This document shows, piece after piece, positions 41,122 through 56,260 of a stretch of 64,000 nucleotides of DNA. Every line of letters starts with the position of its first letter. Position 1 is the first letter of the stretch. The DNA lies in assembly GCF_012070395.1 (NCBI RefSeq), contig NZ_JAAFYS010000002.1:62001-126000 (forward strand), written 5' to 3'. The translations under genes were made by a program, and so were the position numbers. This DNA comes from Pseudoroseicyclus tamaricis (GTDB lineage: Bacteria > Pseudomonadota > Alphaproteobacteria > Rhodobacterales > Rhodobacteraceae). The notes under the pieces were generated by a model. That model worked only from the letters and a program-made list of their open reading frames with translations, ran no database searches and had not been told where the DNA came from.

Positions 41122-42048
41122 ATGCAGATGCCCGCCCTTAACGAGACCTCCGTCATCGGCCCCGTGCTGGCGCTGCTGCGGGCCGACAGCCCCGGCACGC
41201 TGGCGCTGATCACCGGCACGGAAGGCCCGTCCTACCGGCCCGTCGGCGCCATGATGGCGGTGCTGGAGGGGCGGCAGCGCGCCGGCTCCCTCTCCTCGGG
41301 CTGTGTCGAGGCCGATATCGCCCTTCATGCCGAGGCGGCGCTGGCGGAGGGGACGCCCGCCCATGTCCGCTATGGGCGCGGCTCGAAGTTCAAGGACATC
41401 CAGCTGCCCTGCGGCGGCGGGCTCGACGTGCTGATGGTGCCGGCGCCGGACCGCGACGTGCTTGGCGCGCTGGCGGAGGCCTACGAGGCCCGGCGGCCGG
41501 TGACCTTGTGCATCGACACGGCAGGCGGCGGGCTCTCCCTCTCCGAGGACGGGCAGACGGGCTGGCAGGGCGAGACCTTCTGCATCCGCATCGAGCCGGA
41601 GATCTTCTTCTACGTCTTCGGCAAGGGGCCGGAGACCTCCACCTTCGCGGCACTCGTGCAATCCGCAGGCTACCCCAACCTTATCCTCTCCTCCGACGAC
41701 GAGACCCTGGCGGCCGCCGAGGCGGCGGGCTGCCCGACGCGCCATCTCACCGGCGCCAGCGTGCCGGAGGACGTGGCGCCCGACGACCGCTCCGCCATCG
41801 TGCTGTTCTTCCACGATCACGACTGGGAGCCGCCGATCCTCAAGGCGGCGCTGAATACGCCGGCCTTCTACATCGGCGCGCAGGGCAGCCAGCGGGCGCG
41901 GCACCTGCGCGATTACGACCTGCAGGCGCTCGGCGTGGGGGAGGATGCGCTGGCCCGCCTCAAGGGACCCATCGGGCTCGTCCGCTCCGCCCGCGACGCG
42001 CGCACGCTCGCCGTCTCCGTCCTCGCCGAGGTTCTCGCCGAGGCATGA
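41122..42048 (+). CDS. XdhC-family molybdenum hydroxylase maturation protein
   Basis: A 308-residue XdhC/CoxI-family protein that binds and sulfurates molybdenum cofactor for insertion into xanthine-dehydrogenase-type enzymes. SGTLALITGTEGPSYRPVGAMM, SLSSGCVEADIALHAE and IQLPCGGGLDVLMVP in the N-terminal XdhC region and the Rossmann-like C-terminal half (FYIGAQGSQRARHLRDYDLQALGV) are characteristic. GAGG lies upstream of the ATG at 41122; an ATG two codons later is an alternative. It immediately precedes the two-subunit Mo hydroxylase, its likely client. Confidence 0.92.
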   Translation: MQMPALNETSVIGPVLALLRADSPGTLALITGTEGPSYRPVGAMMAVLEGRQRAGSLSSGCVEADIALHAEAALAEGTPAHVRYGRGSKFKDIQLPCGGGLDVLMVPAPDRDVLGALAEAYEARRPVTLCIDTAGGGLSLSEDGQTGWQGETFCIRIEPEIFFYVFGKGPETSTFAALVQSAGYPNLILSSDDETLAAAEAAGCPTRHLTGASVPEDVAPDDRSAIVLFFHDHDWEPPILKAALNTPAFYIGAQGSQRARHLRDYDLQALGVGEDALARLKGPIGLVRSARDARTLAVSVLAEVLAEA

Positions 42049-42126: not shown

Positions 42127-42259
42127 TAATGTTATCAATAGTTTGGGCCCACTCACGCCGCAATCGTGATCGGCGGACGCTGTTGTGGCTGGCCGCGCAG
42201 GCCTAGGCTCAACCGCAAAGGGCGAACGCCCGCCCGTTCCAGCAGGAGGAGGAACCCCC

Positions 42260-42712
42260 ATGGTTCAGCTCACCGTCAATGGCCAAACCCACGATGTGGA
42301 TGTCGAGGCCGACACGCCACTTCTGTGGGTCATCCGAGAACAGCTCGGTCTCACCGGCACCAAGTATGGCTGCGGCGTCGGCGCCTGCGGCGCCTGCACG
42401 GTGAACATCGACGGGTTCCCGACCCGCTCCTGCACGCTCGCCGTGGGCGACCTGCGCGAGGGCGAGGAGATCACCACCATCGAGGGCCTGTCCGAGGATC
42501 TCACCCACCCGGTGCAGATCGCCTGGGCCGAGCTGGACGTGCCGCAATGCGGCTACTGCCAGTCGGGCCAGATCATGGCGGCTGCGGCGCTCCTCAAGGA
42601 TTACCCGAACCCGACCGACGACGACATCGACGCGTTGATGATGAACATCTGCCGCTGCGGGACCTACAACCGCATTCGCGCAGGCATCAAGCGCGCCTCG
42701 GAACTTCTGTAA
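42260..42712 (+). CDS. Molybdenum hydroxylase 2Fe-2S subunit (IorA-like)
   Basis: A 150-residue iron-sulfur subunit of the xanthine oxidase family, carrying electrons from the Mo site. The plant-type 2Fe-2S cluster ligands are Cys38, 43, 46 and 58, and the second cluster's are Cys97, 100, 131 and 133 (QCGYC and NICRCGTY). It has no signal peptide and must be exported by riding on the Tat-exported large subunit. The ATG at 42260 follows AGGAGGAGGA. It begins 12 bases before the large subunit; there is no separate FAD subunit, as in isoquinoline 1-oxidoreductase. Confidence 0.93.
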
Positions 42713-42724
42713 GGGGCTGACGCG

Positions 42725-44908
42725 ATGACTGAACATTTCAAACTCTCCCGCCGCAGCTTCCTGGCCAGCTCCGCTGCCACCGGCAGCGGCTTCGCCCTCG
42801 GCTTCGGCCTGTCTCCCGCCGCTGCGCAGGATCTCTCCAGCGACCTCAGCACGCCGGAGATCAACGCCTGGGTCGTGATCAACCCCGATGACACGGTGAT
42901 CGTCCGCGTCGCCAAGCAGGAGATGGGGCAGGGCACGCTGACCGGCCTCACCCAGCTCGTCGCCGAGGAACTCGACGCCAACTGGGACAACGTGACCTAC
43001 GAGCTCGTCTCCGCCTCCGACAATGTGGTGCGCGAGCGCGTGTGGGGTGCCATGGGCACCTTCGGCTCCAACGGCATCCGCTCCAGCCAGGAGATGGTGC
43101 GCACCGGCGGCGCCGCCGCCCGCGCCATGCTGGTGCAGGCCGCGGCCAACCGCTGGGGCCTCGATGTCGGTGAGCTGACTGTCGAGAAGGGCGTCATCAC
43201 GGCCCCCTCCGGCGAGACGCTCACCTACGGCGCCGTCGCAGAAGAGGCCGCCGGCCTCGAGGTGCCGACGGACGTGACGCTGAAGGACCCGTCGGAGTGG
43301 ACGATCGCCGGCCAGCCGCTGCAGCGTCTCGACACGCTCGGCAAGCTCGACGGCAGCCGCATCTACGCCATCGACTACACGATGGAGGGCATGCTCAACG
43401 CCGCCGTCATCATGACGCCGGTTCTCGGCGGCACCGTCACCAGCTTCGACCAGTCGGCGGTGATGGACATGCCGGGCGTCCAGCAGGTCATCCAGCTCGA
43501 CGACAGCACCGTCGCCGTGGTGGCCGACACCTGGTGGCGCGCCAAGTCGGCGGCCGATGCGCTGCCGATCGAGTGGGATCTCGGCGAGAACGCCTCCTTC
43601 GGGATGGAGCAGCTCGACGCGATGCTCAACGAGGGGCTGGAGGCGGAGGAAGCCTTCGTCGGCAACGAGAACGGCGATATCGATGCTGCTCTCGGCGAGG
43701 CGGCGCAGGTCGTCAGCGCCGATTACCACTTCCCCTGGCAGCACCACGCCACGATGGAGCCGATGAACGCCACCGCGCTGGTGACGGACGAGGGCTGCGA
43801 GGTCTGGACCGCGACGCAGGATGCCGAAAGCGCCCTCGCCGCCGCCTCCAACGCCTCGGGCTTCGACATCGCCCAGTGCCGTGTCCACCGGTTGAACCCG
43901 GGCGGCGGTTTCGGCCGGCGCGCCTCCAGCCAGGATTACGTGACCCAGGCGGTGCAGATCGCCCAGGCCATGCCCGGCACGCCGGTCAAGCTGATCTGGT
44001 CGCGCGAGCAGGACATGATGCACGGCACCTACCACCCGACCACGAAGGCGCGCTTCCGTGCCGGGCTGGACGAGGAGGGGAACCTGACGGGCATGCACAT
44101 GCGCATCTCCGGCCAGTCCATCCTTGCCGGGCTGATGCCCTTCGCGCTGCAGGACGGCATGGACCAGACGATGTTCCAGGGCCTGAACGCGGAGAGCGAG
44201 GAGGGTGAGTTCGGCTATACCGTGCCGAACCTCAAGATCGACCACGCCATGCGCAACCCGCCGCTCCGGCCGGGCTTCTGGCGCGGGGTGTGCAACAACC
44301 AGAACGCCTTCTACCTCGAGAGCTTCATGGACGAGCTGGCCGAAGCGGCCGGCAAGGACCCGCTGGAGTTCCGCCGCGGCCTCATGCAGGACCATCCGCG
44401 CCACCTCGCCGTGCTCGACAAGGTGGCCGAGGGGATCGGCTGGGATACCGAGCCGGCCGAAGGTGTCTACCGCGGCATCGCCCAGCACATGGGCTATGGC
44501 TCCTACGTGGCGGCGGCGGCGGAAGTCTCCGTCGACGAGCGCGGAAACCTGACGATCCACCGGATCGTCGCGGCGACCGACCCGGGCCACGTCGCCAACC
44601 CGCAGCAGATCGAGGCGCAGATCGACGGGTCTTTCGCCATGGGCCTCTCCGCCGGGCTGATCAGCCAGATCACGATGGAAGAGGGCCGGGTGCAGGAGCA
44701 GAACTACGACACCTACCCGGTGGTCATGATGGCGGACATGCCGGCGGTGGAATCGCACCTGATCCCCTCCGGCGGGTTCTGGGGCGGCGTCGGCGAGCCG
44801 ACGATCTTCGTCGCCACCCCGGCGGTGCTCAACGCCGTCTACCAGGCGACCGGCCAGCGCATCCGCGAGCTGCCGCTCTGGAAGCACGACCTGACGCCGA
44901 AGGAGTAA
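42725..44908 (+). CDS. Tat-exported molybdopterin-binding hydroxylase subunit (IorB-like)
   Basis: A 727-residue catalytic subunit of the xanthine oxidase family. A Tat signal (LSRRSFLASSAATGSGFALGF, cleavage after AAA-Q near 35) sends it to the periplasm. The molybdenum-site features VAKQEMGQGTLTGL, the LNPGGGFGRRASSQDY loop, FWRGVCNNQNAFYLESFMDE and the catalytic Glu in GGVGEP (about residue 691) are visible. The family (IorB/periplasmic aldehyde or N-heterocycle oxidoreductases) donates electrons to c-type cytochromes. The substrate is unknown; the adjacent sulfur-oxidation genes make a sulfur-containing substrate worth testing. Confidence 0.92.
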   Translation: MTEHFKLSRRSFLASSAATGSGFALGFGLSPAAAQDLSSDLSTPEINAWVVINPDDTVIVRVAKQEMGQGTLTGLTQLVAEELDANWDNVTYELVSASDNVVRERVWGAMGTFGSNGIRSSQEMVRTGGAAARAMLVQAAANRWGLDVGELTVEKGVITAPSGETLTYGAVAEEAAGLEVPTDVTLKDPSEWTIAGQPLQRLDTLGKLDGSRIYAIDYTMEGMLNAAVIMTPVLGGTVTSFDQSAVMDMPGVQQVIQLDDSTVAVVADTWWRAKSAADALPIEWDLGENASFGMEQLDAMLNEGLEAEEAFVGNENGDIDAALGEAAQVVSADYHFPWQHHATMEPMNATALVTDEGCEVWTATQDAESALAAASNASGFDIAQCRVHRLNPGGGFGRRASSQDYVTQAVQIAQAMPGTPVKLIWSREQDMMHGTYHPTTKARFRAGLDEEGNLTGMHMRISGQSILAGLMPFALQDGMDQTMFQGLNAESEEGEFGYTVPNLKIDHAMRNPPLRPGFWRGVCNNQNAFYLESFMDELAEAAGKDPLEFRRGLMQDHPRHLAVLDKVAEGIGWDTEPAEGVYRGIAQHMGYGSYVAAAAEVSVDERGNLTIHRIVAATDPGHVANPQQIEAQIDGSFAMGLSAGLISQITMEEGRVQEQNYDTYPVVMMADMPAVESHLIPSGGFWGGVGEPTIFVATPAVLNAVYQATGQRIRELPLWKHDLTPKE

Positions 44909-45010: not shown

Positions 45011-45310
45011 ATGCGGACCCTGCTCACCTGTCTTGCCCTCGCGGGCCTTCCGGCCGCGGCCGGGGCGGACACCCTATCCGACATGATGCCAAGCGCCCCG
45101 CCCGGCGCGCTCTCCTGCACCGGCTGTCACGGCGTGGGCGAGGCGGCGCCGCTGCCTCTCGGCCAGTTTACGGCGGAGGAGATCGAGGCCGCCATGGCCG
45201 CCTTCGCCTCCGGCGAGCGGGAGGGCACCATCATGCCCCGCATCGCCCCCGGCTTCACGCCCGAAGAGGTGGCTGCCATCGCCGCCTGGATCACGGGAGA
45301 CACCCAATGA
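45011..45310 (+). CDS. Small mono-heme cytochrome c (sulfide dehydrogenase cytochrome-like)
   Basis: A 99-residue periplasmic cytochrome c with a Sec signal (cleavage near AGA-DT, residue 19-20), heme motif CTGCH at residues 36-40 and a probable axial Met75 in GTIMPRIAPGFTPEEVAAIAAWI. It resembles the mono-heme flavocytochrome c cytochrome subunit (FccA-like) rather than diheme SoxE. The ATG at 45011 follows GAGGAGGCG. Its stop overlaps the flavoprotein start (ATGA), arguing that the two form a complex. It could also accept electrons from the upstream Mo hydroxylase. Confidence 0.88.
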   Translation: MRTLLTCLALAGLPAAAGADTLSDMMPSAPPGALSCTGCHGVGEAAPLPLGQFTAEEIEAAMAAFASGEREGTIMPRIAPGFTPEEVAAIAAWITGDTQ

Positions 45311-46566
45311 GCTTCACAAGGCGCCACATGCTCGCCGCCACCGGCATGGCCGTGGCCACCGCGCCCTTCGCGCTCCGCCCCGTGGCGGCGCAGGAGGCGG
45401 GGCGCATCGTCGTCGTCGGCGGCGGCTTCGGCGGCGGCACCGTCGCCCGGCTCCTCGCCGGCGCCGGCCATGACGTGACGCTGGTGGAGAAGAATGCGCG
45501 CTTCTCGACCTGCCCCTTCTCCAACACCGTCCTCGGCGGCCTCAACCCGATGGAGGCGATCACCTTCTCGCTGGACGGCATCGCCGCCACCGGCGCCCGC
45601 ATCGTGCAGGGCGAGGCGGTAGGGGTGGACGGGCAATCGCTCATGCTCGCATCCGGAGAGGCCTTGCCCTTCGACCGGCTGGTGCTGTCGCCCGGCATCG
45701 ATCTGCGCTTCGACGCCATCTCCGGCTACGACGAGGCAGCGGCGGAGATCATGCCCCACGCCTGGAAGGCAGGCCCGCAGACGGAACTGCTGCGCAGCCA
45801 GCTGGAGGCGATGCCCGACGGCGGCACCGTCGCCATCTGCCCGCCGGCCAACCCCTTCCGCTGCCCGCCGGGCCCCTACGAGCGGGCCAGCCTGATCGCG
45901 CATTACCTCAAGGCCGAGAAGCCGAACTCGAAGATCCTCATCCTCGACGCCAAGGACGGCTTCTCGAAGCGCGACCTCTTCGAGGAGGCCTGGGCGACGC
46001 TCTATCCCGGCATGATCGAGTGGGTGCCATTCTCGCTCGGCGGAAACGTCACCTCCGTCGATCCGGCGGCGATGACGATCACCACCGATTTCGACAGCTA
46101 CGAGGTCGACGTCGCCAACATCATCCCGCCGCAGCGCGCGGCGGCCATCGCGCAGGCGGTGGGCGTGGCTGACGAGACGGGCTGGTGCCCGGTGGACGGG
46201 GTGACCTTCGAATCGACGCTGATGCCCGGCATCCACGTCCTCGGCGACGCCTCGCTGGCCGGCGCCATGCCGAAGAGCGGCTTCTCAGCCAACGCGCAGG
46301 GCAAGGTCGTGGCCGCGGCCATCGACGCGATGCTGCGGGGGGAGGATCCGCAGAGCCCGAAGTACATCAACACCTGCTACTCGCTCGCCGGGCCGGATTA
46401 CGGCTTCACCGTCGCCGGCACCTACGAGGTGACCGGGGGCGAGATCGTCTCCATCGACGGCACCGGGGGCACCAGCCCGCTGGGCGCGGGGGAGGATGTC
46501 CATGCCGCCGAGGCGGATTACGCACGCGCCTGGTATGAGACGGTCACGCGCCAGATCTGGGGCTAG
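45307..46566 (+). CDS. Flavocytochrome c sulfide dehydrogenase flavoprotein (FccB/SoxF-like)
   Basis: A 419-residue periplasmic FAD protein that oxidises sulfide to sulfane sulfur and passes electrons to its cytochrome partner. A twin-arginine-type signal (TRRHMLAATGMAVATAPFAL) precedes the FAD motif GRIVVVGGGFGGGTVARLL. The two redox cysteines expected of FCSD lie in PFRCPPGPYERASLIAHYLK and in NTCYSLAGPDYGFTVAGTY. It is coupled to the preceding cytochrome by ATGA and overlaps the start of soxX, so the flavocytochrome and Sox genes are one unit. Confidence 0.92.
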   Translation: MSFTRRHMLAATGMAVATAPFALRPVAAQEAGRIVVVGGGFGGGTVARLLAGAGHDVTLVEKNARFSTCPFSNTVLGGLNPMEAITFSLDGIAATGARIVQGEAVGVDGQSLMLASGEALPFDRLVLSPGIDLRFDAISGYDEAAAEIMPHAWKAGPQTELLRSQLEAMPDGGTVAICPPANPFRCPPGPYERASLIAHYLKAEKPNSKILILDAKDGFSKRDLFEEAWATLYPGMIEWVPFSLGGNVTSVDPAAMTITTDFDSYEVDVANIIPPQRAAAIAQAVGVADETGWCPVDGVTFESTLMPGIHVLGDASLAGAMPKSGFSANAQGKVVAAAIDAMLRGEDPQSPKYINTCYSLAGPDYGFTVAGTYEVTGGEIVSIDGTGGTSPLGAGEDVHAAEADYARAWYETVTRQIWG

Positions 46567-46999
46567 CGCCTTGCCCGGCGCCATGCTGGCCGCCGCCCTC
46601 GCGGCGGCCCCGGCGCTCGGGCAGGGGCTGGAGGAGCCGCTGACGGCTGTCCCCGGTGACCCGGTGGCGGGCGCGGCCATCGTCGGAGAGCCGACGCGGG
46701 GGCTATGCCTCCTCTGCCACGCCGGCCCCTTCCCGGACGTGCCCTTCCAGGGCACGCTGGCGCCGCCGCTGGACGGCGTCGGGGCGCGGCTCTCCGTGCC
46801 CGAGCTGCGGCTGCGCATCGTCGACAGCCGGCAGGTGAACTCGGCCTCGATCATGCCGCCCTATCACAGCCTTGTGGGGCTGACGCGGGTTGGCGAACGC
46901 TGGCAGGGAGATACCATTCTGAGTGCACAGGAGGTCGAGGACGTCGTCGCCTTCCTCGCCACCCTCACCGATCCGCCAATCCCGGAGGAGACCGAATGA
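46535..46999 (+). CDS. soxX: Sulfur oxidation c-type cytochrome SoxX
   Basis: A 154-residue periplasmic cytochrome that pairs with SoxA in the SoxAX thiol-sulfur transferase. Signal peptide to about residue 30 (AAALAAAPALGQG), heme motif CLLCH at residues 58-62, DGVGARLSVPELRLRIVDSRQ and the axial Met107 in NSASIMPPYH are characteristic. The ATG at 46535 lies inside the flavoprotein gene and has no good ribosome site; TTG 46571 and ATG 46583 are alternatives that would shorten the basic signal region. The stop overlaps the soxY start (ATGA). Confidence 0.9.
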   Translation: MRRSRARSGASALPGAMLAAALAAAPALGQGLEEPLTAVPGDPVAGAAIVGEPTRGLCLLCHAGPFPDVPFQGTLAPPLDGVGARLSVPELRLRIVDSRQVNSASIMPPYHSLVGLTRVGERWQGDTILSAQEVEDVVAFLATLTDPPIPEETE

Positions 47000-47439
47000 C
47001 CACCCGCCGCGCCTTTCTCGCCGGCTCGCTCGCCACCCCGCTGATCCTGCGGATGGAGCCTGCCTTCGCCACGCCGGAGGAGATGCAGAACGCCATCGAC
47101 GCCTTCACCGGCGGCGCCGAGGTGACGGAGGGGCGCGTCGAGCTCGACATCCCGATGCTGGTGGAGAACGGCAACACCGTGCCGCTGCGCGTCGCCGTGG
47201 ACAGCCCCATGACGGATGACGATTACGTCGAGGCGGTGGCGATCTTCAACGAGATCAACCCCTTGCCCGATACTGTCCGCTTCTTCTTCACGCCGCTGTC
47301 GGGCCGGGCGGAGGCGCAGACGCGCATCCGCCTCAACGGCACGCAGCATGTCCACGCCGTGGCGCGGCTATCCGACGGCTCGTTCTGGTCCGCCCAGACG
47401 AATGTCGTCGTCACCGCGCCCGCCTGCCGGGAGGTTTGA
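46996..47439 (+). CDS. soxY: Sulfur carrier SoxY with a non-canonical C-terminus
   Basis: A 147-residue periplasmic carrier whose C-terminal cysteine normally bears the sulfur substrate through the Sox cycle. A Tat-type signal (TTRRAFLAGSLATPLIL) precedes a typical SoxY core (FTGGAEVTEGRVELDIPMLVENGNTVPL, SPMTDDDYV, RIRLNGTQHVHAVARLSDGSFW). Canonical SoxY ends GGCGG; this one ends TAPACREV, with Cys144 four from the end and no glycines. The codons for the final residues also form the soxZ ribosome site (GGGAGG), and neither alternative frame restores GGCGG. Chemistry at the arm could therefore differ. Confidence 0.88.
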   Translation: MTTRRAFLAGSLATPLILRMEPAFATPEEMQNAIDAFTGGAEVTEGRVELDIPMLVENGNTVPLRVAVDSPMTDDDYVEAVAIFNEINPLPDTVRFFFTPLSGRAEAQTRIRLNGTQHVHAVARLSDGSFWSAQTNVVVTAPACREV

Positions 47440-47442
47440 GCC

Positions 47443-47760
47443 ATGGCTGTCATGATCAACGTGCCCGAGACGGCGGCGCCCGGAGAGGTCGTGGAGGTGA
47501 AGATCATCATCTCCCACCCGATGGAGACGGGCTTCCGCACCGGCAGCGACGGCAAGCTGGTGCCGCGCAACATCATCCACGAGCTGACCTGCCGCTATAT
47601 GGGGCAGGAGGTGTTCCGCGCCGAGCTGCACCCGGCGGTGGCGGCCAACCCGTTCTTCTCCTTCTTCGTGACGGCGCAGGAGAGCGGCGAGGTGGAGCTG
47701 AGCTGGGTCGACGAGGCGGGCGAGACGGTCACGGAGACGCGGCCCATCGAGGTGGGCTGA
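47443..47760 (+). CDS. soxZ: Sulfur carrier complex subunit SoxZ
   Basis: A 105-residue immunoglobulin-fold partner of SoxY. INVPETAAPGEVVEVKIIISHPMETGFRTG is the classic SoxZ opening, followed by PRNIIHELTCRYMGQEVFRAELHPAVAANPFFSFFV. It has no signal peptide and is exported together with SoxY. The ATG at 47443 follows GGGAGG encoded in the soxY tail. The stop TGA shares its last base with the long soxA ATG. Confidence 0.93.
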   Translation: MAVMINVPETAAPGEVVEVKIIISHPMETGFRTGSDGKLVPRNIIHELTCRYMGQEVFRAELHPAVAANPFFSFFVTAQESGEVELSWVDEAGETVTETRPIEVG

Positions 47761-48590
47761 TGGCGGGCCAGGTGGAGAGGGCGGAGGGGGGCGCTGCCCC
47801 CCGCCTTCGGCCCCCCCGGGATATTTGTAGAAAAGCGAGATGGAGCGGGGCGGTTGTGGCTGCCGTGCTCGCCGGGGCGGCGGGGGCGCAGGACGGGCGT
47901 GTGTCGACCTATGAGCAGATGGCGCCGGAGCTGCGGGCAATGCAGGACGACGACTTCTCCAATCCCGGCCTCCTCTGGGCGCAGACGGGAGAGGAGCTCT
48001 GGGCCGAGCCGTCGGGGGCGGATGAGGTGGCGTGCGCCGAGTGCCACGGCGCCGCCGAGGAGATGGCGGGCGTCGCGGCGCATTACCCCGACTGGGACGA
48101 GGAGAGCGGGCAGGCGGTGGATCTCGCCGCGCGCATCAACCTCTGCCGGCAGCGCCACCAGGGTGCCGAGCCGCTCGAGCGGGGCAGCGAGGCGCTGCTG
48201 GCACTGACGACGCTGGTGGCGCTGCAGTCCCGCGGCCAGCCCATCGCGCCGTCAGAGGCGCCGCAGATGGAGGCGGTGCGCGGGCAGGGTGAGGCGCTCT
48301 ACTCCACGCGCATGGGGCAGCTGAACCTCGCCTGCGCCACCTGCCATGACGATCTCGCCGGCGGGCGCCTGCTGGCGGCCGAGATCCCGCAGGCCCATCC
48401 GACGGGCTACCCGCAGTACCGGCTGGAATGGCAGGAGATGGGGGATCTGGACCGGCGGCTGCGAAACTGCATGGTCGGCGTCCGGGCGGAGCCCTTCGCG
48501 GCGGGCTCGCAAGAGTTCGTGGCGCTGGAGGCCTACCTGAAGGCCCGCGCCGTGGGGATGGAGATGGAGGCGCCGGCCATCCGCCCCTGA
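47760..48590 (+). CDS. soxA: Sulfur oxidation c-type cytochrome SoxA, repeat-derived N-terminus
   Basis: A 276-residue protein by the longest start. It is the diheme SoxA that joins the sulfur substrate to SoxY. Heme motifs are CAECH (92-96) and CATCH (192-196), with an extra cysteine at 129, the position used as a heme ligand or disulfide in relatives, and the catalytic Cys237 in RNCMVGVRAEPF. The signal core is WSGAVVAAVLAGAAGA. The only usable upstream start is ATG 47760; residues about 8-28, including the basic RKAR before the signal core, are encoded by a dispersed intergenic repeat. GTG codons at about 47854 would leave too short a signal. Confidence 0.88.
   Translation: MAGQVERAEGGAAPRLRPPRDICRKARWSGAVVAAVLAGAAGAQDGRVSTYEQMAPELRAMQDDDFSNPGLLWAQTGEELWAEPSGADEVACAECHGAAEEMAGVAAHYPDWDEESGQAVDLAARINLCRQRHQGAEPLERGSEALLALTTLVALQSRGQPIAPSEAPQMEAVRGQGEALYSTRMGQLNLACATCHDDLAGGRLLAAEIPQAHPTGYPQYRLEWQEMGDLDRRLRNCMVGVRAEPFAAGSQEFVALEAYLKARAVGMEMEAPAIRP
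47781..47842 (+). repeat. Variant dispersed GC-hairpin repeat inside the soxA 5' coding region
   Basis: GGAGGGGGGCGCTGCCCCCC, then CCTTCGG, CCCCCCCGGGATATTTGTAG and AAAAGCGAGATGG. It has the same hairpin plan as the other copies, but the tail is of the ATATTTGTAGAAAAG type instead of GGATTTTTGGGACCAAAGA. It reads as SoxA residues about 8-28 in the only open frame. Confidence 0.75.
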
Positions 48591-48643: not shown

Positions 48644-49267
48644 TCAGCCGAACATCCAGTTGGGAAGGAACAGGACGAGCCCCGGGAAAAACAGCAGCAC
48701 CGCGACCACCGCGAAGATCGCCAGGAAGAATGGCAGCGATTCCCGCATGTACTCCTCCACCCGCACGTTGAGGATGGAGCAGACGGTGTACATCGCCACG
48801 CCCTCCGGCGGCGTCATCGAGCCGAGGGTGACGATAGTCATCATCAGGATGCCGAAGTGCACCGGGTCCACCCCCGCCGCCTTCACCACGGGGACGAGGA
48901 TGGGCGTGAGGAGCAGCACGAGGATGGTGCTCTCGATGAAGTGGCCCGCGACGAAGAGCGCGGCCAGCACCACGGCAACGATGACGCTGGGGTCGTGCAG
49001 GCCCGAGAGCAGCACGTCGGCCACCTCCTGCGGGACGCGCAGGAAGATTATGGCGAAGCCCAGCATGCCGGACATCAGGAAGATCAGCATGACCGTGCCG
49101 GTGTTGGAGAGCGCGTCGCCGAGCGCCGCCCGGAAGCGCTCCCGCGTCATCAGCCGTTGCGCCAGCGCGCCGACGAGGATGGCGTAGACGACCGCGAAGG
49201 CGCCGACCTCGGAGGGGGTGAAGATGCCGCCGCTGATGGAGACGATGAGCAGCACCGGGACGAGGCG
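48644..49267 (-). pseudogene. TRAP transporter large permease (DctM-like), 5'-truncated remnant
   Basis: About 200 residues match only the C-terminal half of a DctM-type TRAP permease (full length about 430): VPVLLIVSISGGIFTPSEVGAFAVVYAILV, GHFIESTILVLLLTPILVPVVKAAGVDPVHFGILM and TLGSMTPPEGVAMYTVCSI. Upstream of the RLVPVLL segment the frame loses similarity and meets a TAG at 49313-49315. The N-terminal half and the DctP/DctQ partners are absent. The next gene, uxuA, is a usual neighbour of uronate TRAP systems, so a deletion between them probably removed the rest. Confidence 0.8.
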
Positions 49268-49390
49268 GCTGCAGGATAGCTGCGACTCTGCCGCGAAGCG
49301 ACTTGCGCCATTCTACCATACTAGTCAACAATGCGCTGGACACTGACATCCCGGCCCGGCAAGAGGGGCCGCCGACGACGGGGAGAGACG

Positions 49391-50563
49391 ATGCGCGAGA
49401 GCTGGCGGTGGTTTGGGCCGAATGACGCGATCACCATAGAGGATGTGCGCCAGACCGGCGTGCCTGCCATCGTCTCGGCGATGCACCATCTGCGCCCCGG
49501 AGAGCTGTGGACGCCGGAGGAGATCGCCCGCCGTCAGGCGGAGATCCGCGCCGCCGGGATGGAGTGGGAGGTGGTCGAGTCGCTGCCCGTCTCGGAAGCC
49601 ATCAAGCGGCAGACGGGCCCGTGGCGCGAGCACATCGCGACCTATTGCGAGAGCCTGCACAACCTCGCCGCCGCCGGCATCGAGGTGATCTGCTACAACT
49701 TCATGCCCGTGCTCGACTGGACGCGCACGGATCTGGCCTGGCCGCTGCCGAGCGGCGCCACCTGCATGCGCTTCGATCATCTCGATTTTGCCGCCTTCGA
49801 CCTGCACATCCTCGCTCGCCCGGGCGCGCACTACCCCGATGACATCGCCGCCGCCGCCCGCGAGCGCGCGGAGGAGCTGGGGGAGGAGGGGCAGGCCCGC
49901 CTGACCCGCGCCATCCTCTTCGGCCTGCCGGGGGAGCCGGAGGGCCTGTCACTGGAGAAGCTGCAGACCGAGCTCGATGCCTATGCCGATCTCGGCGCCG
50001 AGGGCCTGCGCGCCCATCTCATCGCCTTCCTCGAGGAGGTGGTGCCGGTAGCCGAGCGCCTCGGCTTGCGGATGTGCTGCCACCCCGACGATCCGCCCTT
50101 CGGGCTCCTCGGCCTGCCGCGCGTCATGTCGACGGAGGCCGATTACACCGCCGTGCTCGAGGCGGTCGATAGCCCGGCCAGCGGCATGACCCTCTGCTCC
50201 GGCTCGCTCGGCGCGCGGGGGGACAATGACCTGCCCGCGATCATGCGCCGCTGGGGCCATCGCGTGCCCTTCATCCACCTGCGCAACGTGGCGCGGGACG
50301 GCACGGAGCTGCCCGGCTCCTTCCACGAGTCGGGGCACCTGACGGGCGATGTCGACATGCTGGCCCTCATCGAGGCCATACTCGCCGAGGAGGCCCGCCG
50401 CCACGAGGCCGGCCGGACAGACTGGAACATTCCCTTCCGCCCCGACCACGGGCTCGACATGTCCGACGACGCCCGACGCCGCGCCCAGCCCGGCTACCCG
50501 CTCGTCGGTCGCCATGTCGGCCTCGCCGAGCTTCGGGGCGCCATCGCGGCAATGTCTCGGTAA
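49391..50563 (+). CDS. uxuA: Mannonate dehydratase
   Basis: A 390-residue TIM-barrel metalloenzyme converting D-mannonate to 2-keto-3-deoxygluconate in glucuronate catabolism. ESWRWFGPNDAITIEDVRQTGVPAIVSAMHHLRPGELW is the standard UxuA opening. Metal-ligand regions CCHPDDPPFGLLGLPRVMST, LCSGSLGARGDNDL and FIHLRNVARDG and the C-terminal PFRPDHGLDM are intact. The ATG at 49391 follows GGGGAGAG. No uxuB, kdgK or GntR regulator is adjacent; the truncated TRAP gene on its left suggests the rest of a uronate locus was lost. Confidence 0.95.
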   Translation: MRESWRWFGPNDAITIEDVRQTGVPAIVSAMHHLRPGELWTPEEIARRQAEIRAAGMEWEVVESLPVSEAIKRQTGPWREHIATYCESLHNLAAAGIEVICYNFMPVLDWTRTDLAWPLPSGATCMRFDHLDFAAFDLHILARPGAHYPDDIAAAARERAEELGEEGQARLTRAILFGLPGEPEGLSLEKLQTELDAYADLGAEGLRAHLIAFLEEVVPVAERLGLRMCCHPDDPPFGLLGLPRVMSTEADYTAVLEAVDSPASGMTLCSGSLGARGDNDLPAIMRRWGHRVPFIHLRNVARDGTELPGSFHESGHLTGDVDMLALIEAILAEEARRHEAGRTDWNIPFRPDHGLDMSDDARRRAQPGYPLVGRHVGLAELRGAIAAMSR

Positions 50564-55492: not shown

Positions 55493-56260
55493 TCAGGTTT
55501 CCGCGCGTTCGGCCCAGCCGGCGAAGATGCGCTCCATAGCGACGACGGCGTAATAGAGGACGATGCCGAGGACGGCGAGAGCGATGAGGACGGCGAACAT
55601 CAAGGGGTAGTTGGAGTTCGTCTGGCCGGAGAGGAACAGGGCGCCGAGGCCGCGGCCATGGGGGGAGACGATCTCCACCAGGTTGGTGCCGATGAAGGCC
55701 AGCGTCACGGCGACCTTCAGGGCGCCGAAGAACTCCGGCAGCGTCTTCGGCAGGGCGATCTTCCAGAAGATAGTCATGCGGCTGGCGCCGAGGGCACGCA
55801 GGATGTCGCGGTATTCCGGCTCCAGCGTCGACAGGCCAATGGCGACCGAGACGGCGATGGGGAAGAAGGAGATGAGGAAGGCCATCATCACCGTGTTGAA
55901 GTTGTGCTGGCCGATGAAAAGGAGCGCCAGCACTGGCACCAGCGTCGCCTTCGGGATGGCGTTGAAGCCGACGAGCAGCGGGTAGAGCCCGTCGCGCACG
56001 ATGCGGCTGAAGCCCATGACCATGCCGAGGGCGAGGCCGAAGATCACCGCCAGCAAGAGGCCCGCGACCGTGCGCCAGAGCGTCTGCCAGGAGCCGAGGA
56101 GGAACAGCTCCCAGAAGCGGGCATAGGCCTCGGGTAGGTCGGAGGGCGAGGCCATGACGTAGTTCGGCCAGCCATTGGCCCAGACCAGCAGCTCCCAGAG
56201 CACAAGGAAGATCAGGATGGAGAGGACGGGTACGCCGACCTTGCGCAGGGCGGTGTTCAT
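55493..56260 (-). CDS. ABC transporter permease (SsuC/ThiX-like)
   Basis: A 255-residue inner-membrane permease with six predicted helices. The EAA-type loop (YRDILRALGASRMTIFWKIALPKTLPEFFGALK) and SLTFIGTNLVEIV-like segment belong to the nitrate/sulfonate/thiamine-precursor importer group. The ATG overlaps the ATPase stop by four bases, so it is third in the order SBP-ATPase-permease. The substrate is set by the binding protein. Confidence 0.9.
   Translation of the reverse strand: MNTALRKVGVPVLSILIFLVLWELLVWANGWPNYVMASPSDLPEAYARFWELFLLGSWQTLWRTVAGLLLAVIFGLALGMVMGFSRIVRDGLYPLLVGFNAIPKATLVPVLALLFIGQHNFNTVMMAFLISFFPIAVSVAIGLSTLEPEYRDILRALGASRMTIFWKIALPKTLPEFFGALKVAVTLAFIGTNLVEIVSPHGRGLGALFLSGQTNSNYPLMFAVLIALAVLGIVLYYAVVAMERIFAGWAERAET

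Follow-up and report, generated by a model that had tools for sequence, protein, structure and literature searches.

An AACIE-arm-type SoxY from Pseudoroseicyclus tamaricis and the association of its arm with a molybdenum hydroxylase

Why does a SoxY protein end without the GGCGG arm of true SoxY, and what does the altered arm serve? The question is raised by a 64,000-nucleotide stretch of Pseudoroseicyclus tamaricis DNA (“the window”), in which a SoxY of 147 amino acids is encoded at 46996-47439 on the forward strand. Translation confirms the TAPACREV end described in an earlier, sequence-only reading of the locus: the protein finishes in VVVTAPACREV, and direct reading of the arm codons (47422..47436, forward strand) gives Ala-Cys-Arg-Glu-Val in place of Gly-Cys-Gly-Gly. 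The arm cysteine, Cys144, is the fourth residue from the C-terminus, as that reading had it, rather than the third as in GGCGG. The core is normal, again as described. The Pfam SoxY match scores 104.9 bits and its domain ends at the arm cysteine, and in alignment Cys144 matches the carrier cysteine of the solved Paracoccus SoxY (2ox5/2oxg). The protein shares the fold, the Tat signal, the arm cysteine and the soxX, soxZ and soxA neighbors of the canonical SoxY of the soxXYZABCD pathway, but lacks GGCGG, and its genome lacks SoxB and SoxC.

The sequence-only reading had treated GGCGG as invariant, which holds only for true SoxY, and had overlooked an existing NCBIfam name for this arm type. The window SoxY scores 172.5 bits against TIGR04487 (SoxY_para_1, “SoxY-related AACIE arm protein”; cut-off 172), with values of 171.8 bits, or 172.1 with its neighbors, in a separate scan. 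Against TIGR04488, the profile of true GGCGG SoxY, it scores only 100.5 bits (cut-off 125). By these profile scores it is a divergent member of TIGR04487, barely above the cut-off. Its PACREV arm has the Ala-Cys-x-acid form of that family and shares the xACx[ED] pattern, with Arg at Cys+1 as its own variation. This type of arm is thus neither an error nor unique but defines a catalogued SoxY subfamily, and the window SoxY ends in an Ala-Cys-x-Glu arm because the protein belongs to that subfamily. GenBank uses the TIGR04487 name for homologs from the same operon in Neorhizobium galegae and on Methylobacterium plasmids.

The three closest homologs (68-71% identity), from Palleronia, Alexandriicola and Loktanella, end in PACRES, PACREA and PACREV, respectively, and their codon differences in the tail are synonymous. 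PACRE[VSA] has been kept in these homologs while their codons changed synonymously; judged from this comparison, the tail is maintained by selection. A frameshift or sequencing error was considered as the source of the tail and rejected on the same grounds. The other two frames over the tail read DECRRHRARLPGGL and RRMSSSPRPPAGRF, and neither restores GGCGG, so the earlier view that a frameshift was unlikely holds. A search for viral relatives found none.

TIGR04557, a quinoprotein-dehydrogenase-associated carrier, is also SoxYZ-like and paired with an oxidoreductase of organic compounds, but it is a fused SoxYZ protein encoded beside a PQQ enzyme. It matches both SoxY and SoxZ of the window weakly (64.5 bits against a cut-off of 140). 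In symbiotic sulfur oxidizers, the residues of the SoxY swinging arm vary and are thought to set the substrate range (PMC11237559). The SoxY phylogeny in the same study (mSystems 2024) removed sequences without “GGC,” and for this reason the Ala-Cys group was left out of that survey.

The window SoxY lies in an operon with the order iorA-iorB-cytc-fccB-soxX-soxY-soxZ-soxA, all on the forward strand, in which the genes from the cytochrome to soxA overlap or are closely spaced. Upstream of iorA is an xdhC-like gene for a molybdenum cofactor maturation factor (41122..42048, forward strand; NF045664, 75.9 bits, below the cut-off), which probably serves IorAB; xdhC also adjoins three of the surveyed loci (L089, L161 and L252). 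The iorA-like gene (42257..42712) encodes a [2Fe-2S] subunit matched by NF041020 and other profiles below their cut-offs. The iorB-like gene (42725..44908; PF02738, PF20256) encodes a large subunit with the Tat signal SRRSFL, MoCoBD domains and the catalytic Glu (GVGEP) of xanthine-oxidase-family molybdenum hydroxylases. Its nearest solved chain is 8gy3, an aldehyde dehydrogenase large subunit, and, in the comparison with known substrate classes (isoquinoline, aldehyde), all NCBIfam equivalogs score IorAB far below their cut-offs. A small monoheme cytochrome c gene (45011..45310; PF13442) occupies a conserved FccA/SoxE-like position and is followed by a gene for an FccB/SoxJ/SoxF-like flavocytochrome c sulfide dehydrogenase flavoprotein (45307..46566; PF21706, PF09242), which matches the structures 5n1t (6e-142) and 1fcd (1.6e-119).

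The remaining genes encode the Sox proteins. The monoheme cytochrome gene soxX (46574..46999; TIGR04485, 75.3 bits, cut-off 61) has an uncertain exact start, and its stop codon is overlapped by the ATG of soxY (46996..47439). It is followed by soxZ (47443..47760; TIGR04490, 94.8 bits, cut-off 76), whose stop overlaps the start of soxA (47760..48590; TIGR04484, 215.7 bits; PDB 1h31/2c1d). SoxA is a diheme protein (CAECH, CATCH) with the catalytic ligand Cys237, and the window thus has a SoxXA with the catalytic heme-ligand cysteine of canonical Sox.

Directly past soxA, at 48644-49280 on the reverse strand, is the C-terminal half only (profile positions 222-413) of a DctM TRAP permease. It stops abruptly near 49280, leaving a remnant of the gene or a scar of recombination next to the operon, and adjoins a complete UxuA mannonate dehydratase (49391-50563, forward strand); the two were probably once a TRAP-uxuA sugar-acid cluster. 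An ABC permease (BPD_transp_1, reading as the NitT/TauT type) at 55493-56260 on the reverse strand is a possible uptake link to the substrate of the pathway.

The standard model gives each enzyme its own step: SoxXA loads thiosulfate onto the arm, SoxB releases the sulfate, and the sulfane sulfur is oxidized by SoxCD (PMC5336275). Of these enzymes, SoxXA alone remains in the window. Neither soxC nor soxD is in the operon, and the genome, 99.8% complete, encodes neither SoxB nor SoxC, the best matches being 152 bits (cut-off 550) and 25 bits (cut-off 420), respectively. The possibility of a SoxB hidden elsewhere in the genome was rejected, as the best match (L001) is 5′-nucleotidase-like and far below the cut-off. 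The earlier description of a cluster without soxB and soxCD was thus borne out for the operon, and SoxB and SoxC are missing genome-wide.

We compared the best 80 SoxY relatives from 84,980 genomes. All 80 have xACx[ED] arms, with AA or PA before the cysteine and an acidic residue at Cys+2, and none has soxB within 10 kb. Among the 71 whose upstream sequence is long enough, 70 have the Tat-type molybdenum hydroxylase genes iorAB (70/80 overall), and 9 of the 10 relatives without iorB reach the contig end within 3.2 kb upstream. Their usual gene order is that of the window. About nine operons that keep iorAB are missing fccAB, so FccAB is not essential to the core of the operon. Operons of this type that lack both cytochrome c and fccB were observed at L104, L118, L133, L140, L154 and L246-L248, and their occurrence defines the core as iorAB-soxXYZA.

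An independent survey covered 385 alphaproteobacterial genomes, of which 86 had a SoxY-like match and 21 had one above the TIGR04487 cut-off. Loci were compared for 76 cases, comprising 75 from this survey and the window. Loci with Ala before the arm cysteine have iorB as a neighbor in 30 of 35 cases, compared with 1 of 41 Gly loci (p 7e-15), and soxB is a neighbor of 0/35 and 27/41, respectively. With one locus per genus, the values are 23/26 (Ala) and 1/33 (Gly) for iorB, and 0/26 and 23/33 for soxB. All 27 soxB loci in the survey have GGCGG. SoxB occurs in only two of the 21 genomes above the TIGR04487 cut-off (G122 and G361), in each beside a separate GGCGG SoxY.

The sequence-only reading proposed that such tails track the absence of soxB, and this holds in one direction only. 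Ala-Cys tails never occur with soxB, and soxB operons with ACREV-type SoxY, whose frequent occurrence would have spoken against the proposal, were looked for and found in neither set (0/80 and 0/35). However, of 13 GGC loci that have no soxB neighbor (the SGC locus L207 left out), 12 are in genomes that lack SoxB altogether. As these twelve SoxB-less genomes keep GGC, SoxB loss alone does not give the Ala-Cys arm. The arm follows the presence of IorAB, not merely the loss of SoxB, and IorAB is the better predictor. The arm thus tracks a different partner, an IorAB-type molybdenum hydroxylase, and not the “fewer partners” proposed earlier. There are exceptions: Ala-Cys arms without adjoining iorAB, despite sufficient flanking sequence, at L127, L203, L211 and L219, and iorAB with an SGC arm at L207.

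Other SoxYZ arrangements were also observed. In a set of divergent SoxYZ clusters (L206-L209, L201 and L192), iorAB is placed downstream or in divergent orientation, and the arms are GACS, SGCI, GACGG, GACEGLG and GACIELGE; these arrangements fall outside TIGR04487. SoxYZ pairs that lack soxB, and in most cases soxXA as well (L170, L172, L177, L180-L182, L197, L202 and L210) end in GGCGAG, GGCST, GGCAS, GGCIT, GGCA or GGCGT and are further carriers that keep GGC. We looked for a conserved extra neighbor gene that could name the substrate at 66 thinned iorB loci and found scattered neighbors only, from which no substrate was deduced. NitT/TauT-like ABC ATPases are near 15 of these loci and TTT binding proteins near 8, in variable places.

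A tree built without the arm columns, in which the window SoxY is represented by its closest relatives (L065-L067), groups most Ala-Cys SoxY proteins into a single clade of 41 rows (SH-aLRT 95), alongside smaller groups. Internal branches have modest support, and several rows are long. The tree contains at least three supported arm changes, and every Ala-Cys group has iorAB-linked members; an independent-pairs test of arm against iorAB has no power with only three to four arm changes. Most Sox-linked IorB proteins are separated with strong support from the IorB paralogs of the same genomes. Identity to the window IorB is about 54-73% for those in the main Sox-linked clade, 29-46% for divergent Sox-linked ones and 28-39% for other paralogs. 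Two divergent Sox-linked sets (L206/L207; L208) lie outside the main Sox-linked clade.

The operon type is spread across the Alphaproteobacteria, with many examples in Bradyrhizobium, Microvirga and Methylobacterium. The whole operon is also plasmid-borne, with one plasmid predicted to be conjugative, and a version without fccB and with SAC arms occurs in three genomes of ∼2 Mb from another class of the phylum. Sox genes of a Polynucleobacter genome were previously compared with those of B. japonicum, and sulfur oxidation was not confirmed (PMC3308952).

The partner proteins were examined for changes that accompany the arm. In SoxA at Ala-arm loci, the active cysteine is kept in 109/109, the Arg four residues earlier in 107/109 and heme 1 in 110/110; SoxA has lost heme 1 at some Gly-arm loci. 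Relative to the others, SoxZ of Ala-arm loci has Arg to Leu at position 4, Lys/Arg to Asn at position 6 and Lys to Asp at position 43 (Met, Asn and Asn, respectively, in the window). This lack of basic residues may be compatible with another partner or with a substrate of less negative charge.

The operon type is the non-canonical sox cluster of the surveyed Bradyrhizobium loci, which share the iorA-iorB-cytc-fccB-soxXYZA order and have AACTEE arms. As the surveyed Bradyrhizobium carry it in this role, soxY2 of B. diazoefficiens sox locus II is most likely of the Ala-Cys type. The original study of the Bradyrhizobium sox loci reportedly noted a resemblance of locus II to green sulfur bacteria; an FccB-like gene ahead of soxX would be consistent with that. 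B. diazoefficiens has two soxY genes, of which only soxY1, from the complete locus, is required for thiosulfate oxidation (PMC5748708). Given that SoxXA alone remains in the window and that soxY2 is not needed for thiosulfate, we conclude that this is a dedicated pathway for a different substrate. In the open-access literature, outside which most subscription papers lie, we found nothing on point for the pairing of IorAB with Sox, the AACIE arm or a soxB-less SoxXYZA.

We consider it rather probable that the window SoxY is the sulfur carrier of a periplasmic pathway that is independent of SoxB and SoxCD and uses SoxXA, FccAB and IorAB. SoxXA would oxidatively join a thiol substrate to Cys144. 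Since a carbon-hydroxylating enzyme is encoded in the operon instead of SoxB, the group attached in this way probably contains carbon, as in an organic thiol, thiohemiacetal or similar compound. IorAB would hydroxylate this carbon part while it is carried on the arm, and the sulfane sulfur remaining on the carrier would pass to FccAB. The Ala-Cys-x-acid arm may fit IorAB and, where a cell also has canonical Sox, keep the carrier from entering the SoxB channel. The reaction known from xanthine-oxidase-family molybdenum enzymes is hydroxylation of carbon rather than oxidation of sulfur, which makes an organic thiol or similar compound the leading guess. The protein is thus most likely a dedicated carrier for a thiol or organosulfur substrate, with the chemistry and substrate deduced from gene content. 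In favor of the pathway are the better fit to TIGR04487 than to TIGR04488, the conserved operon, the exclusion of soxB, the retained catalytic residues of SoxA and the molybdenum hydroxylase, the separate clades of SoxY and IorB, and the occurrence on plasmids and in another class. Against it are the four Ala-Cys loci without iorAB and the SGC arm beside iorAB at L207.

Other explanations account for part of these observations. The substrate could still be sulfide, thiosulfate or sulfite, with IorAB and FccAB replacing SoxB and SoxCD for partial oxidation to polysulfide or sulfur, or with IorAB oxidizing the SoxY-bound sulfur itself. The full sulfide dehydrogenase flavoprotein and the intact SoxXA active site are in keeping with this, as are the SoxF/SoxJ-like flavoproteins that also accompany canonical Sox. 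We nevertheless think it unlikely, given the carbon chemistry of the hydroxylase family, the operons with iorAB but no fccB, and the dispensability of Bradyrhizobium soxY2 for thiosulfate oxidation. A reading along the lines of the earlier suggestion, in which an ordinary Sox carrier, serving SoxXA only, lost its glycines through relaxed constraint after the loss of SoxB and SoxCD, agrees with the absence of SoxB and SoxC. It appears improbable in light of an arm that is conserved rather than decayed and that follows iorAB, while SoxB-less genomes keep GGC. Alternatively, the chemistry could be that of canonical Sox acting on another sulfur anion, and the arm changed solely against cross-talk with SoxB where both systems coexist. 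They do coexist in G361, G122, G087 and G197, where the soxB locus has GGCGG and the iorAB locus xAC, but most genomes with the Ala-Cys arm, that of the window among them, have no SoxB (19 of the 21 above the TIGR04487 cut-off), and we regard this explanation as highly improbable.

The arm family itself was known; what appears to be new, judged from the open-access literature, is its operon-level rule, namely that the Ala-Cys arm occurs with IorAB and never with SoxB. A second kind of SoxYZ-based metabolism is suggested by the strict link to a molybdenum hydroxylase and the strict exclusion of soxB. More tentatively, periplasmic organosulfur oxidation of this kind may be widespread, with a molybdenum hydroxylase acting on a substrate held covalently on the SoxYZ arm, without SoxB or SoxCD. 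Because annotation labels these clusters “thiosulfate oxidation” genes, surveys that count soxXYZA in genomes and metagenomes probably over-call thiosulfate metabolism. The pairing of SoxYZ with IorAB provides a concrete lead on the substrate.
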